From: Synergistetes bacterium ADurb.Bin155
GTDB taxonomy: Bacteria > Synergistota > Synergistia > Synergistales > Thermovirgaceae
Assembly (NCBI GenBank): GCA_002070395.1
Contig: MWDE01000002.1
Coordinates: 62,001-126,000 of the forward strand
Direction of reading: 5' to 3'
Length of the DNA: 64,000 bases
Below are positions 28,836-51,183 of this stretch, in pieces. The translations under genes and the position numbers were made by a program. The first letter of the stretch is position 1. The number at the start of each line of letters is the position of its first letter. The notes under the pieces were generated by a model. The model made no database searches, was not told where the DNA came from, and worked only from the letters and a program-made list of their open reading frames with translations.

Positions 28836-29858
28836 TCAGGCCCAACGGATCGAATTCGACTTGAAGACCAGGATCACCGTTGACCCTGGAACGATGCCAA
28901 GCCTGGAGAGCGATCCCTTCGTGATCCTGGAGGTGAGGACCGTATCCTGGATATTCACCGTAACAAGAATGCTTCGTCCCTCGTCCTCCAGGTTCATCCT
29001 GGTGACTGTTCCCCTCAGGGTGTTCCTTGCCGAAGAATTTCCGGGGTAGTCCAAGGAAAGGATAATATCACCAGGGTCCAGTAAGCCCATGGAATATTCG
29101 TTCCCTGGTTTTCCCGCCGCCGTTATGATCTGGCCATCCTCTAGGTACCTGAGGACGGTACCATCGTTTCCCTCTTCCCAGGGACCCTGGATGATGTTTT
29201 CGATATTTTTGGATCTGATCTTGCCTGAAAACATGGAGATCACTTCGTCGGCGGCGCTGTAGGACCATTCAATATCATGACTTACAAGAACGATGGACGC
29301 GCCGAACTTTTCCCTGGCGTCCACGATTGCACGGGCGATGATCCTCGCGCTGTTGGCATCGATACTGGCCGTAGGTTCATCGAGGATCAATACTTCCGGC
29401 CTTAAAACCAGCCTTGAAGCCAAGGCCACCCTTTGTGACTCTCCACCGGATAGCTGGAACCAGTGCCTGCCGGCGAAATCCTCTGGATCGAGCCCGACCA
29501 TCTCGAGAGCCGAATGCACTTTTCGGGTAAGACCCTCCTTGATGGCCCTGGCCTTGAGGCCGTAAACCACGTTTTCAAAAACCGTCCTCTTTAGAAGCCT
29601 GGTTTCCTGGAGAAGGAGCGTGGCCTCTCTTCTCAACTGTTCATTAATGTCATGCACCGGTATGCTCTTGAAAAGAAGCCGCCCGCTCCGGGGCCTTTCA
29701 AGAAAAGCCAGTATTCTCAAGAGTGTACTTTTCCCACAACCGTTGGGACCGGTAATCCCCAGGATGGAGCCTCTTTCTATTTTCAGCTCTGAGACCTCAA
29801 GTACGGTGCGTCCGGCGTAGGACTGGGTGATATTCTCTAGTTCGTAGATGTAGGTCAA
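28836..29858 (-). CDS. tupC: Tungstate ABC transporter ATP-binding protein
   Basis: The 340-residue protein has an ABC ATPase domain (~1-235): Walker A ITGPNGCGKSTLLRIL, Q-loop LLQETRLLKRTVFENVVYGL, signature LSGGESQRVALASRL, and Walker B VLILDEPTASID. A C-terminal ~100-residue extension (DPGDIILSLDYPGNSSARNTLRGTVTRMNLEDEGR) matches a TOBE-like oxyanion-binding domain, common in molybdate/tungstate ATPases, where it senses the anion. The gene overlaps tupB by 4 bases and is last in the unit. Substrate is assigned from TupA. Confidence 0.92.
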   Translation of the reverse strand: MTYIYELENITQSYAGRTVLEVSELKIERGSILGITGPNGCGKSTLLRILAFLERPRSGRLLFKSIPVHDINEQLRREATLLLQETRLLKRTVFENVVYGLKARAIKEGLTRKVHSALEMVGLDPEDFAGRHWFQLSGGESQRVALASRLVLRPEVLILDEPTASIDANSARIIARAIVDAREKFGASIVLVSHDIEWSYSAADEVISMFSGKIRSKNIENIIQGPWEEGNDGTVLRYLEDGQIITAAGKPGNEYSMGLLDPGDIILSLDYPGNSSARNTLRGTVTRMNLEDEGRSILVTVNIQDTVLTSRITKGSLSRLGIVPGSTVILVFKSNSIRWA

Positions 29859-30550
29859 CTGGCGGCCCTCTTCCTTGCCACCGAAACGGCCCCGTTGACG
29901 ATAAAGGCTATGGACAGCAGAACGATTCCCAGGGCTATCCCCTCGGCGAACTGGCCCTTACCCGTCTCAAGGGCGATGGCGGTGGTGATCGTCCGGGTTC
30001 TCCATTTAATGTTGCCTCCGATCATCATGGAGACACCCACCTCGGAGATGATCCTGCTGTACGCCGTCATGGCCGCTGCCACGACGGCGTATCGACCCTC
30101 CCAGAGGGAGCTGGCAGCCAGTTGCCCGGGAGAAGCCCCCAGCGTCATCAAAGTGAGGCGGGTTGAATCCTCCATCTGTTCCGTGGCCGACGCGGTCAGG
30201 GACACCACCACCGGGAGCCCGAGGAAAAATTGGCCGATGGCGACCCCTCGCAATGTGAAAAGGAGACCCAGCCCCCCGAAGGGTCCGCTCCTGGAGATGA
30301 AGGCGTAGATCAGCAACCCCACGACTACTGTGGGTATCGCCATCAAGGTATCTGATATAGCCCTGCAGGCGTGTTTGCCGGGGAAGGAATAGTATCCCAG
30401 AATGAATCCCAAGGGTATCCCCGCCGCCAGGGTGAGGAGGATCGAAAAGGTCGATACCTTCAGGGTCGTGAAAATGGCGTTGAAGGTCTCCTCTTGTCCT
30501 GAAAGAAGGATGGTAAAAGCCGCTTTAAACCCGTCGGACAGATAATGCAT
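29855..30550 (-). CDS. tupB: Tungstate ABC transporter permease
   Basis: A 231-residue permease with about five or six membrane helices. It has the EAA-like cytoplasmic loop LMTLGASPGQLAASSLWEGRYAVVAA and a SEVGVSMMIGGNIKWRTRTITTAI segment typical of TupB/WtpB proteins. It forms the membrane channel for TupC and TupA. It overlaps tupC; a 150-base gap with a terminator separates it from tupA, so the periplasmic protein gene may be expressed more strongly. Confidence 0.92.
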   Translation of the reverse strand: MHYLSDGFKAAFTILLSGQEETFNAIFTTLKVSTFSILLTLAAGIPLGFILGYYSFPGKHACRAISDTLMAIPTVVVGLLIYAFISRSGPFGGLGLLFTLRGVAIGQFFLGLPVVVSLTASATEQMEDSTRLTLMTLGASPGQLAASSLWEGRYAVVAAAMTAYSRIISEVGVSMMIGGNIKWRTRTITTAIALETGKGQFAEGIALGIVLLSIAFIVNGAVSVARKRAAS

Positions 30551-30700: not shown

Positions 30701-31525
30701 TTACTTCGCGTTAGGGACAAACAGGGGTTTGCCTAGAAGGCTGAACTCCCCGATCATCTTCTGGACCTTGTCGGAGCGCATCCAGTCGGAAAATTTCAAG
30801 GCCAGGTCGTAACGGAGATGGTCTCCCCTTACCGGGTTGACGGCGATAACGCTGTACTGGTTGAAGAGCGCTTCATCGCCCTCGACCAGTATCACCAGGG
30901 GGGGATTGCCCTTGTAATTGTCCTCGTACTTAATGAAGGTGCCCCTGTCGGTCAAGGTGTAGCCGACCTTCTCGGCAGCTATGTTGATCGTATCGAGCAT
31001 GCCCTGCCCGGTTTGGATGTACCAGTTCTCCTTCTCGGGTTGACCGTATCCAAATCTCTCCCAAAGGTCTAGTTCCAGAACGTGGGTTCCGGATTTATCG
31101 CCCCGGCTGGCGAAGGGAGCCCCCTTGGTAGCGATAGAGATAAACGCCTCTTTGACGGTTTTGCCCTTGATCTTCGCGGGGTCGGAAGGGGGACCTATTA
31201 TTATAAAATCGTTGTACATGACCTGCCGGCGGTTGACCCCAAAGCCGTCCTGGACGTACTGCTTTTCCACTTCGGGAGCGTGGACAAGGAGGACGTCCAC
31301 ATCGAGATTTTTACCCAATTCGAGGGCCTTCCCGGTCCCAACTGAAACCCACTGGAGTTCGATCCCTGTATCCTTGAGAAACTCCGGGGCCAGGTAATCC
31401 AGGAGTCCCGTGTTGTCCGTGCTGGTCGTAGTGGCCATGCGCAATACTTCGGCGGAAAAAGCGGAATAAGCTGCGATGGACAGAACGAGAACTGAAAAGA
31501 AGAGGATCCTCAAAGAACGTTTCAT
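30701..31525 (-). CDS. tupA: Tungstate ABC transporter substrate-binding protein
   Basis: The 274-residue protein has a signal peptide (MKRSLRILFFSVLVLSIAAYSAFSA). It carries the TupA oxyanion signature RMATTTSTDNTGLL, plus DVLLVHAPEVEKQYVQDGFGVNRRQVMYNDFIIIGP and ASRGDKSGTHVLE. TupA binds tungstate very tightly in the periplasm. Tungsten serves aldehyde:ferredoxin oxidoreductases and formate dehydrogenases in such anaerobes. ATG 31525 has a full AAAGGAGG site 8 bases upstream. The gene sits directly behind the riboswitch. Confidence 0.94.
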   Translation of the reverse strand: MKRSLRILFFSVLVLSIAAYSAFSAEVLRMATTTSTDNTGLLDYLAPEFLKDTGIELQWVSVGTGKALELGKNLDVDVLLVHAPEVEKQYVQDGFGVNRRQVMYNDFIIIGPPSDPAKIKGKTVKEAFISIATKGAPFASRGDKSGTHVLELDLWERFGYGQPEKENWYIQTGQGMLDTINIAAEKVGYTLTDRGTFIKYEDNYKGNPPLVILVEGDEALFNQYSVIAVNPVRGDHLRYDLALKFSDWMRSDKVQKMIGEFSLLGKPLFVPNAK

Positions 31526-31565: not shown

Positions 31566-31600
31566 AAAAAAACCGTCTCCCCGCGTTGAGGGGAGACGGT
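31566..31600 (-). terminator. Terminator in the tupA leader
   Basis: On the minus strand ACCGTCTCCCC (31600-31590) pairs with GGGGAGACGGT (31582-31572), followed by seven T. It stands between the riboswitch and the tupA ribosome binding site, so it is probably the expression platform. Confidence 0.88.
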
Positions 31601-31609
31601 CTACAAGGC

Positions 31610-31716
31610 CGACCACTCCTTCCTCCTTTCCAAACGCGGGAGGCGTTCCTGTTTCCGGGAACGCCCTTCGGCCCGCCGCCGTGGGAAAACCTTTAGGCGG
31701 TAGGGCTCGGAGGTTT
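31610..31716 (-). promoter_or_regulatory. Molybdenum/tungsten cofactor (Moco/Tuco) riboswitch
   Basis: The minus-strand leader contains CTCCGAGCCC near its start, then CGCCTAAAGG, a stem GGCGTTCC-CGGAAACA-GGAACGCC, and CTCCCGCG. As I recall the Moco RNA motif, these are its conserved blocks. The position, between a promoter and a terminator ahead of a tungstate transporter, fits cofactor-responsive control. Whether it senses the molybdenum or tungsten form cannot be told. Confidence 0.72.
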
Positions 31717-31725
31717 TGTAACGGA

Positions 31726-31754
31726 AATATATCATGTAAAGAAAGGAAGGTAAA
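31726..31754 (-). promoter_or_regulatory. Promoter of the tup unit
   Basis: On the minus strand TTTACC (31754-31749), a 17-base spacer and TATATT (31731-31726). Transcription would begin just before the riboswitch. Confidence 0.6.
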
Positions 31755-49667: not shown

Positions 49668-50498
49668 ATGGAAGGTTTCAAGACTCCTGTTGAATTGGCC
49701 AAGTCAGCATGTCTTGCAGCAAAGGCCAAGGTGGCCTGGAGCATTCCCCAGATGCTTCTGTTGGGGGTCATGGCCGGGGCCTACATTGCTTTCGGGGGAT
49801 GGCTGATGACCGTCGTGACCCACGACCTTGCAGCTCATATGGGCCTGGGTTTCTCGAAGTTTCTCGGCGGCGCGATATTCAGCGTCGGCCTGATGCTAGT
49901 GGTCATTGCCGGGGCGGAACTTTTCACGGGGAACTGCATGATGCCCCTTGGCGTCATGGCGGGCTGCATCCCCATGAGCGGAGTCGTCAGGAATTGGTTC
50001 TGGGTCTACGTGGCCAACTTGCTCGGGAGTGTTATTGTAGCGTTACTGATCTTTTATTCCGGCCTCTGGAAGGGACCGATCGGCATCAACGCCTTCAAGA
50101 TCGCGGCCGGCAAGATGAGCCTCCCCATAGGCGAGGCCATTTTCCGAGGCATCCTCTGTAACTGGCTCGTAGTGCTTGCCGTGTGGATGAGCATGGCGGC
50201 CACCGACATCATCGGGAAGATCTGGGCTATATTCTTCCCCATCATGGCCTTCGTCGCCTCCGGTTACGAACACTCCATCGCCAACATGTACTTTATGGCC
50301 CTGGGGATCCTCCTCAAGGGCGACCCCACGACCGTAAGCGGCGCCGGCCTTTCCCAGGAGGTGCTATCCCAGGTCTCTATAGGGGGTTACTTCCATAACC
50401 TGATCCCTGTGACTATCGGCAACTTGGTCGGAGGGATCCTGTTCGTTGCAATATTCTACTACCTGGTCTTCAGGACGCATCTTGAGGACATTGTGTAA
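49668..50498 (+). CDS. focA: Formate/nitrite-family transporter
   Basis: A 276-residue FNT-family pentameric channel with six membrane helices. Family features: FKTPVELAKSACLAAKAK at the start, GAELFTGNCMMP (the Thr-containing omega loop), and GYEHSIANMYFMALG with the pore His. It most resembles FocA formate channels; nitrite or hydrosulfide channels are alternatives. GAGGAGGAA lies about 11 bases before ATG 49668. The ~100-base leader holds two small hairpins (CCCCCTCGGGGG type) and a TAGAAT (49560-49565) as possible -10 box. Confidence 0.92.
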   Translation: MEGFKTPVELAKSACLAAKAKVAWSIPQMLLLGVMAGAYIAFGGWLMTVVTHDLAAHMGLGFSKFLGGAIFSVGLMLVVIAGAELFTGNCMMPLGVMAGCIPMSGVVRNWFWVYVANLLGSVIVALLIFYSGLWKGPIGINAFKIAAGKMSLPIGEAIFRGILCNWLVVLAVWMSMAATDIIGKIWAIFFPIMAFVASGYEHSIANMYFMALGILLKGDPTTVSGAGLSQEVLSQVSIGGYFHNLIPVTIGNLVGGILFVAIFYYLVFRTHLEDIV

Positions 50499-50553
50499 AG
50501 GCATCAAAAGCCGATCCTGTTCTAATAACCTAGATACCTGCGGCGGCAGCGGG

Positions 50554-51183
50554 GTGATCGACGCTGCCGCCGTCATTCTTGCCGGCGGCAGGGGCAAAAG
50601 GGCTGGAGGGGCCAAGGTGTTCCTCACCGTCGAAGGGCGCTGCCTCATCCTGGTGGTTCTGGAAAGGGTCCTGTCTCTTTTCAGCCAGGTCATCATTTCC
50701 TGCCGAAGAGAAGATAGCGAGCCGCTCAGCAGGATCATCCAGTCCTTGCCGGAAAGGGACCGTGTTAAGACCGTATCTGACCGGGTGGAGGGCCTGGGCC
50801 CCCTGGAAGGGATGGCCATGAGCCTTAAGGCTTCCGAAAGGGAATGGGCCTTTGTGATGGGGTGCGATATGCCCCTCGTCGACCCTGCCGTGGTGAGGTT
50901 GATGTGGTCGAAGAAGGGGGAGGAAGAGGATGCCGTCATCGCGAGGATAGGGGGCTTCCTTGAGCCTCTTCATGCCTTTTACCACAAAAGGTGCGCCGAC
51001 GCTGTGGAAAGGGCTATTTCTAGATCCAGGCACAAGATAACCTCCTTTTTATCGGACATTAGCACCCATGTCATCGAAGAGCGGGAGCTCGCCCACATCC
51101 CAGGTTACCGCCGCTCTTTCCTGAACGTTAATACCCCGGAAGACATTCGATCCTGGCTCGAGGAAAGGCACCGGTGCCCCTGA
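50554..51183 (+). CDS. mobA: Molybdenum cofactor guanylyltransferase
   Basis: MobA links GMP to molybdopterin to make the bis-MGD or related cofactor. The 209-residue protein has the nucleotidyltransferase signature AAVILAGGRGKRAGGAKVFL, the substrate stretch GLGPLEGMAMSLKAS, FVMGCDMPLVDPAVV, and the final FLNVNTPEDI. In the first motif, the usual SSRMGGxDK is shortened. GTG 50554 was chosen by homology; no strong ribosome site is visible and an upstream in-frame TTG is possible. It fits the tungstate transporter in the same window. Confidence 0.88.
   Translation: MIDAAAVILAGGRGKRAGGAKVFLTVEGRCLILVVLERVLSLFSQVIISCRREDSEPLSRIIQSLPERDRVKTVSDRVEGLGPLEGMAMSLKASEREWAFVMGCDMPLVDPAVVRLMWSKKGEEEDAVIARIGGFLEPLHAFYHKRCADAVERAISRSRHKITSFLSDISTHVIEERELAHIPGYRRSFLNVNTPEDIRSWLEERHRCP

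Follow-up and report, generated by a model that had tools for sequence, protein, structure and literature searches.

The leader of the tungstate importer operon tupABC, on the minus strand of the 64,000-nucleotide stretch of DNA analysed here (the window), is by its sequence a real, complete and ordinary member of a known riboswitch family, the Moco RNA (RF01055), in its tungsten-type form. The original prediction of a Moco/Tuco riboswitch of tungsten form before a tungstate transporter is supported at this level. On balance, we think that the leader acts as a P3-less (Tuco-type) transcriptional OFF switch, that the cofactor involved is probably the tungsten form, and that a second importer operon of the same genome, wtpBCA, is under the same feedback.

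The Moco RNA family, together with the proposal that copies without the P3 stem sense the tungsten cofactor (Tuco), was described by Regulski et al. (2008, PMC2408646). In that study 58 of 176 examples were without P3, tungsten genes were present in 17 of the 19 organisms with P3-less RNAs, and the E. coli RNA lost regulation when its P3 was deleted, with no switch in specificity (PMC2408646). The question raised in 2008 was whether an RNA can discriminate between two cofactors that are identical except for a tungsten or a molybdenum atom. A regulon survey of 2013 gave the ligand of the motif as 'molybdenum or tungsten cofactor?' and included molybdenum and tungsten transporters as a class (PMC3766115), and a review of 2022 accepts MoCo and WCo riboswitches, associated with molybdate or tungstate transporters (PMC9971707). 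In the open-licence literature, no joint report of tungsten, riboswitch and Synergistetes was found, and the portions of text available there held no biochemical proof of Tuco binding and no later direct test of Mo/W discrimination.

The tupABC leader and its host genome

The scan with the Moco RNA covariance model that the original prediction had proposed returned RF01055 at 31724..31607 on the minus strand (cmscan, 74.2 bits, about twice the gathering score of 36; E 4.5e-16), and the match is full length (model 1-135). R1, a covariance model built from 15 P3-bearing sequences and adopted after a motif parser had missed many aptamers, scored 77.7 bits at the same site on L001. The proposed comparison with the stem that is absent from Tuco variants was equally clear: the P3 positions of RF01055 are deleted in the alignment to this leader, which is the P3-less form. 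P1 (31713-31709 with 31626-31622), P2 (starting at 31706), P4 with its GAAA loop (31666-31641) and P5 with its loop (31640-31630), all on the minus strand, were read from the sequence and checked by folding, and the leader folds better than its shuffled versions (z -3.2). A4 is an alignment of 118 aptamers (111 distinct) from Synergistota and from further genomes with TupA. Of its 33 base pairs, 29 vary on both sides, and 91.7% of the cells are paired, against 72.0% in shuffles (0 of 500 as high); A4 was fitted to R1, so that these covariation counts lean towards R1. Membership of RF01055 is indicated by the score above gathering, by covarying P1, P2, P4 and P5 and by an expression platform before molybdenum/tungsten transport genes. 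The Tuco type is indicated by the missing P3 stem and by the tungsten metabolism genes of the host (tup and wtp importers, AFOR_C genes).

On the minus strand, a candidate promoter is followed by the aptamer, a terminator, a ribosome-binding site, tupA, tupB and tupC. From the order of promoter, riboswitch-like blocks, terminator and tupA proposed originally, the aptamer, the 13-bp terminator and tupA stand, whereas the promoter (TTTACC, 17 nt, TATATT with an extended -10 TG; 31726..31754, -) is weak: the scan found one promoter-like site against 1.5 in shuffles, so the candidate, well placed as it is, is by itself no better than chance. The tupA gene (30701..31525, -) encodes the substrate-binding protein of the tungstate ABC transporter (NF041772, 352.5 bits, E 1e-105; cut-off 400), and its ATG at 31525 is preceded by AAAGGAGG. 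It is followed by the permease gene tupB (29855..30550, -; NF041773, 285 bits, cut-off 320) and by tupC (28836..29858, -; NF041774, 173.9 bits, cut-off 400), which encodes an ATP-binding protein with a TOBE domain (Pfam). Each of the three proteins has TupA, TupB or TupC, respectively, as its best curated family, with a score below the NCBI curated cut-off. The mobA gene expected in the window corresponds to a MobA-like gene at 50446-51183 (+), which was missed by the motif search and detected by Pfam and NCBIfam; its best matches are indeed MobA models, but the scores of 130.8 and 126 bits are below the cut-offs of 379 and 164. A formate/nitrite channel gene adjoins it (window 49668-51183, +), and no Rfam riboswitch match was found at these positions.

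The host genome is a 1.9-Mb draft of the phylum Synergistota (88% complete). Two RF01055 copies were found in this incomplete draft, with 150 of 238 first-look candidates scored, and both are P3-less. The second copy (L003:9242-9121, 65.3 bits) is followed by three genes. Their products are a permease and an ATPase, for which WtpB and WtpC are the best families, below cut-off, and a binding protein that scores above the curated cut-off for WtpA. Because one copy precedes tupABC and the other wtpBCA, both copies found serve tungstate import, which strengthens the original suggestion that a copy before tupA could be a tungsten-type form. There are also six AFOR_C (AOR-family) genes, a family that we take to be tungsten enzymes. 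No ModA above cut-off was found in the draft, and the one moaA above cut-off is on a contig with no RF01055 match. The genome offers a clean test of the question of 2008: the two P3-less leaders found both precede tungstate importers, AOR-type enzymes are encoded, and no ModA importer was recognised.

Compared with the Moco riboswitch RF01055 as published (PMC2408646), the tupABC leader has the same core, P1, P2, P4 with GAAA loop, P5, leader position and terminator platform, but it is without P3 and precedes tungstate import genes instead of moa genes. With the Tuco (WCo) variant it shares the absence of P3, tungsten-related genes in the host and a tungstate importer downstream; it differs in belonging to a phylum absent from the 2008 abstract and in a genome where both copies found serve importers.

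Two further genes were observed in the host. On its contig C2 (L366, C2:21585-22862), a formate dehydrogenase-like gene has an in-frame TGA in the context DHCAHL-TGA-HSA and likely encodes a selenocysteine enzyme. Near the wtpBCA operon, L003:4750-5859 (+) is an MFS_MOT1 molybdate transporter-like gene; the single RF01055 match of the L003 stretch is on the opposite strand to it, before wtpB.

Distribution of the RNA and of P3 among relatives

RF01055 was found in 92 of 185 Synergistota genomes, and TupA at E 1e-40 in 74 of 183. Of the 72 listed Synergistota tupA genes scoring 400 bits or above, at least 55 (in at least 53 of 69 genomes) are preceded by the RNA at a distance of up to 1200 nt and in the same orientation; this is a lower bound, since only the best 150 RNA matches were used. 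These matches are 115-131 nt long, and the longest (L052) is without P3. Among 50 named TupA-bearing genomes, any RNA copy was found in 12; four of these are Synergistota, leaving 8 of 46 others. Within the fetched stretch (at most 4 kb), a copy was found at 8 of 80 named TupA loci, three of them from Synergistota. The link between the RNA and tupA is sparser outside Synergistota. The phylum samples, each named after its centre, contained RF01055 in 220 of 398 genomes (Clostridiaceae centre, here Bacillota), 79 of 395 (Geobacter centre, Desulfobacterota) and 48 of 398 (Sedimenticola centre, Pseudomonadota). In the available portion of a paper on Geobacter bemidjiensis, modE, a protein regulator gene, adjoins tupABC; the accessible parts of the literature on this species and on tungsten formate dehydrogenase yielded no mention of the Moco/Tuco RNA. 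Eight Moco RNA pattern matches on viral contigs were taken as chance, as R1 matched none of them at E 0.01.

R1 identified 321 aptamers in the fetched loci, of which 302 remained after removal of 15 duplicates (306) and of four sequences under 100 nt. A first MAFFT alignment of both forms had been dropped because it confused P3 with the 3' arm of P2. The spacer between P2 and P4 in the survey aptamers is either 2-12 or 16-27 nt, with none between. All P3-bearing calls under 122 nt and both P3-bearing calls from Desulfobacterota were rechecked by eye, and five automatic P3-bearing calls with a misplaced P2 3' arm (L342:7876, L159, L168, L354 and L356) were changed to P3-less. In the 98 calls kept as P3-bearing, the spacer stem has 4 bp or more in 92 and 3 bp in five, and in one (L261) no stem is clear.

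The 302 aptamers were then sorted by the first downstream gene (BLAST clusters, with NCBIfam on representatives). The ratio of P3-less to P3-bearing forms was 59:0 for tupA (58:1 before correction), 5:0 for tupB, 4:0 for wtpA, 4:2 for wtpB and 7:0 for AOR, while it was 10:20 for modA, 13:32 for moaA (automatic 12:33), 17:17 for moeA and moeA-like genes together and 12:2 for the XDH family (automatic 11:3). The 98 aptamers before untyped genes ('other') gave 73:25 (automatic 71:27). In these counts, the 'moeA-like' cluster f6 and the singleton f44, which was included under modA, gave no NCBIfam match at 1e-25, and BLAST was the sole basis for placing the AOR cluster f14. One Atribacteria genome carries two identical P3-bearing copies before a WtpB-like gene, and a P3-less modA-like leader (L040) occurs in the window's own genus.

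On a per-genome basis, and with L168 as corrected, the ratio of P3-less to P3-bearing leaders is 57:1 for tungstate importers, compared with 9:18 for modA (p 6.4e-11). The same difference is seen within Bacillota (8:0 versus 2:15, p 4.2e-5) and within Synergistota (35:0 versus 1:2, p 0.0043), while Desulfobacterota give no signal (7:0 versus 6:0). The split by importer type inside Bacillota bears on the idea that the RNA senses the molybdenum cofactor, or molybdenum and tungsten forms alike, and that its placement before tup and wtp genes merely follows the metal supply of the lineage. This idea is unlikely, though it deserves to be taken seriously: importer and cofactor genes could share one non-selective sensor, and P3-less RNAs of Desulfobacterota do precede modA (6 of 6 genomes) and moaA (9 of 9 aptamers, corrected) as well as tupA. 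Such a sensor would not lead one to expect the Bacillota split, and it would make needless the presence of both forms, which are carried together by 8 of the 204 sampled genomes.

It is also conceivable, but rather improbable, that the P3 split records the lineage history of leaders travelling with their genes instead of a specificity code. A leader and its importer can be inherited together, and whole samples are uniform, with 30 of 30 RNAs P3-bearing, before moaA, in Pseudomonadota and 56 of 56 P3-less in Desulfobacterota. Merging near-identical aptamers reduced the modA leaders from 30 to 20, as such a history would suggest, but the link of P3 with importer type survived merging at 85% similarity (56:1 for importers versus 10:10 for modA, p 1.6e-6) and holds inside a single phylum.

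The P3 rule, under which loss of P3 marks tungsten, is therefore supported, at the level of sequence comparison, where both forms occur side by side, and it is not universal. Its limitation to phyla with both forms follows from the sampling, which was not random (loci came from top-scoring matches, some regions were picked for long matches, and related genomes are not independent), and from Desulfobacterota, in which P3-less RNAs also precede modA and moaA, so that loss of P3 alone is no tungsten mark there. The survey is a larger test of the rule than the 19 organisms with P3-less RNAs of 2008, uninformative in Desulfobacterota. Its value, together with the clean regulon of the host genome, lies in both supporting the rule and showing its limit.

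Terminator, predicted antiterminator and proposed direction of control

The expression platform of the tupABC leader is an intrinsic terminator with a 13-bp stem and a T run (31570..31602, -). The terminator scan found 7 terminator-like sites against 4.4 in shuffles (sd 2.1), and the stem at 31602..31570 is the longest of the seven. The segment CCCGCGUU in the P5 loop (31633..31640, -) is a perfect 8-nt complement of 31587-31580, where AACGCGGG occupies part of the terminator loop and 3' arm (31580..31587, -); by complementarity, the two segments are the halves of a predicted antiterminator. In ViennaRNA, the terminator fold (P1 plus terminator) and the antiterminator fold both reach -72.6 kcal/mol, with -71.8 kcal/mol when P2 and P4 are enforced as well, and in the ensemble for this leader the antiterminator has a probability of 0.70 and the terminator one of 0.28.

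Since the predicted antiterminator consumes the P5 loop, a formed aptamer, and hence cofactor binding, should free the terminator, which would make the leader an OFF switch. In the proposed mechanism, when the pyranopterin cofactor (probably the tungsten form) is scarce, CCCGCGUU would pair with AACGCGGG, a second small hairpin would capture the 5' arm of the terminator, and RNA polymerase would read into tupABC. Abundant cofactor would stabilise the aptamer with its P1 and P5 helices, the terminator would form and tungstate import would be turned off; through the second P3-less copy, the wtpBCA importer would come under the same feedback. Ligand binding, the preference for tungsten and the direction of control of this leader are all inferred here, from the structures and gene contexts described. 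A leader that acts as an ON switch, or as some other type of attenuator that works through a leader peptide or a bound protein, is very unlikely: terminator-antiterminator leaders can be built either way and the two folds are isoenergetic, but the covariance match is full length with covariation, the use of the P5 loop by the predicted antiterminator means that a formed aptamer would favour the terminator, and an OFF switch is expected where a product feeds back on its own uptake. In addition, the E. coli moaA member represses (PMC2408646).

The pairing was also compared across the 38 importer leaders that have, within 40 nt, a stem of 8 bp or more. In these, complementarity between the P5 loop and the leader's own terminator averaged 4.47 nt, compared with 4.15 nt when terminators were swapped, and 15 of 2000 swaps reached as high a value. 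The tupABC leader and L310 have an 8-nt match, and the 36 other leaders one of 2-7 nt. Capture of the terminator arm by the 3' strand of P1 was considered as a general antiterminator; this pairing beat composition shuffles (0 of 100 as good), and it was rejected as not leader-specific because 50 of 300 swaps were as good. Of 49 Synergistota importer leaders, 29 have a terminator that starts at most 25 nt from the aptamer, and the terminator scan found none within that distance in the other 20; some terminator was found in 45 of 74 importer leaders overall.

Tandem and divergent copies

In the Bacillota genomes G295 and G564 (L191:1501-1911, + and L268:2796-2398, -), two Moco RNAs stand in series, the first P3-less and the second P3-bearing. 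Each is followed by a terminator as judged by eye, and a formate dehydrogenase alpha/NuoG-like gene comes next. The formate dehydrogenase-like frame of L268 contains an in-frame TGA flanked as HCART-TGA-H, and the gene of L191 is cut by the locus end. These series are possible two-input Mo/W gates. A broader reading, in which P3-less RNAs would be true sensors of the tungsten cofactor, Synergistota would dedicate them to tup and wtp, and some Bacillota series pairs, in which each copy has a terminator and a selenocysteine formate dehydrogenase gene lies downstream, would form an RNA-only two-input Mo/W gate, is tentative, and we rate its chance as somewhat short of even. Homotypic tandems of MoCo and of WCo riboswitches have been reported (PMC9481103); no pair of a P3-less with a P3-bearing RNA was found in the rows of Table 2 of that paper that were consulted, nor by title among the papers listed. 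In S. wolfei, three P3-less RNAs in a row precede a molybdate/tungstate transport operon (PMC2408646). This array resembles the arrangement in the window in having P3-less RNAs and terminators before metal transport genes, but a single copy precedes tupABC here, and tandem pairs were seen only in relatives.

Eight Synergistota genomes (L012, L022, L023, L031, L032, L033, L336 and L341) have two consecutive P3-less copies before tupA. The second copies score lower, their CCGAG motif is CTGAA in L012 and L341, and L025 has a short second piece. Divergent P3-less pairs, spaced by about 140-155 nt, were found in L057 (2717-2828, - and 2971-3082, +; same contig as L018), facing tupA and wtpB-like genes, and in L058 (3028-3140, - and 3294-3405, +), facing tupB-like and tupA genes. 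Furthermore, P3-less copies precede a DcuR/DpiA-type response regulator gene, an unusual target, in four Synergistota loci (L043, L046, L152 and L337); the cluster concerned (f16) is P3-less in 4 of 4 cases and was typed from its representative L337 only.
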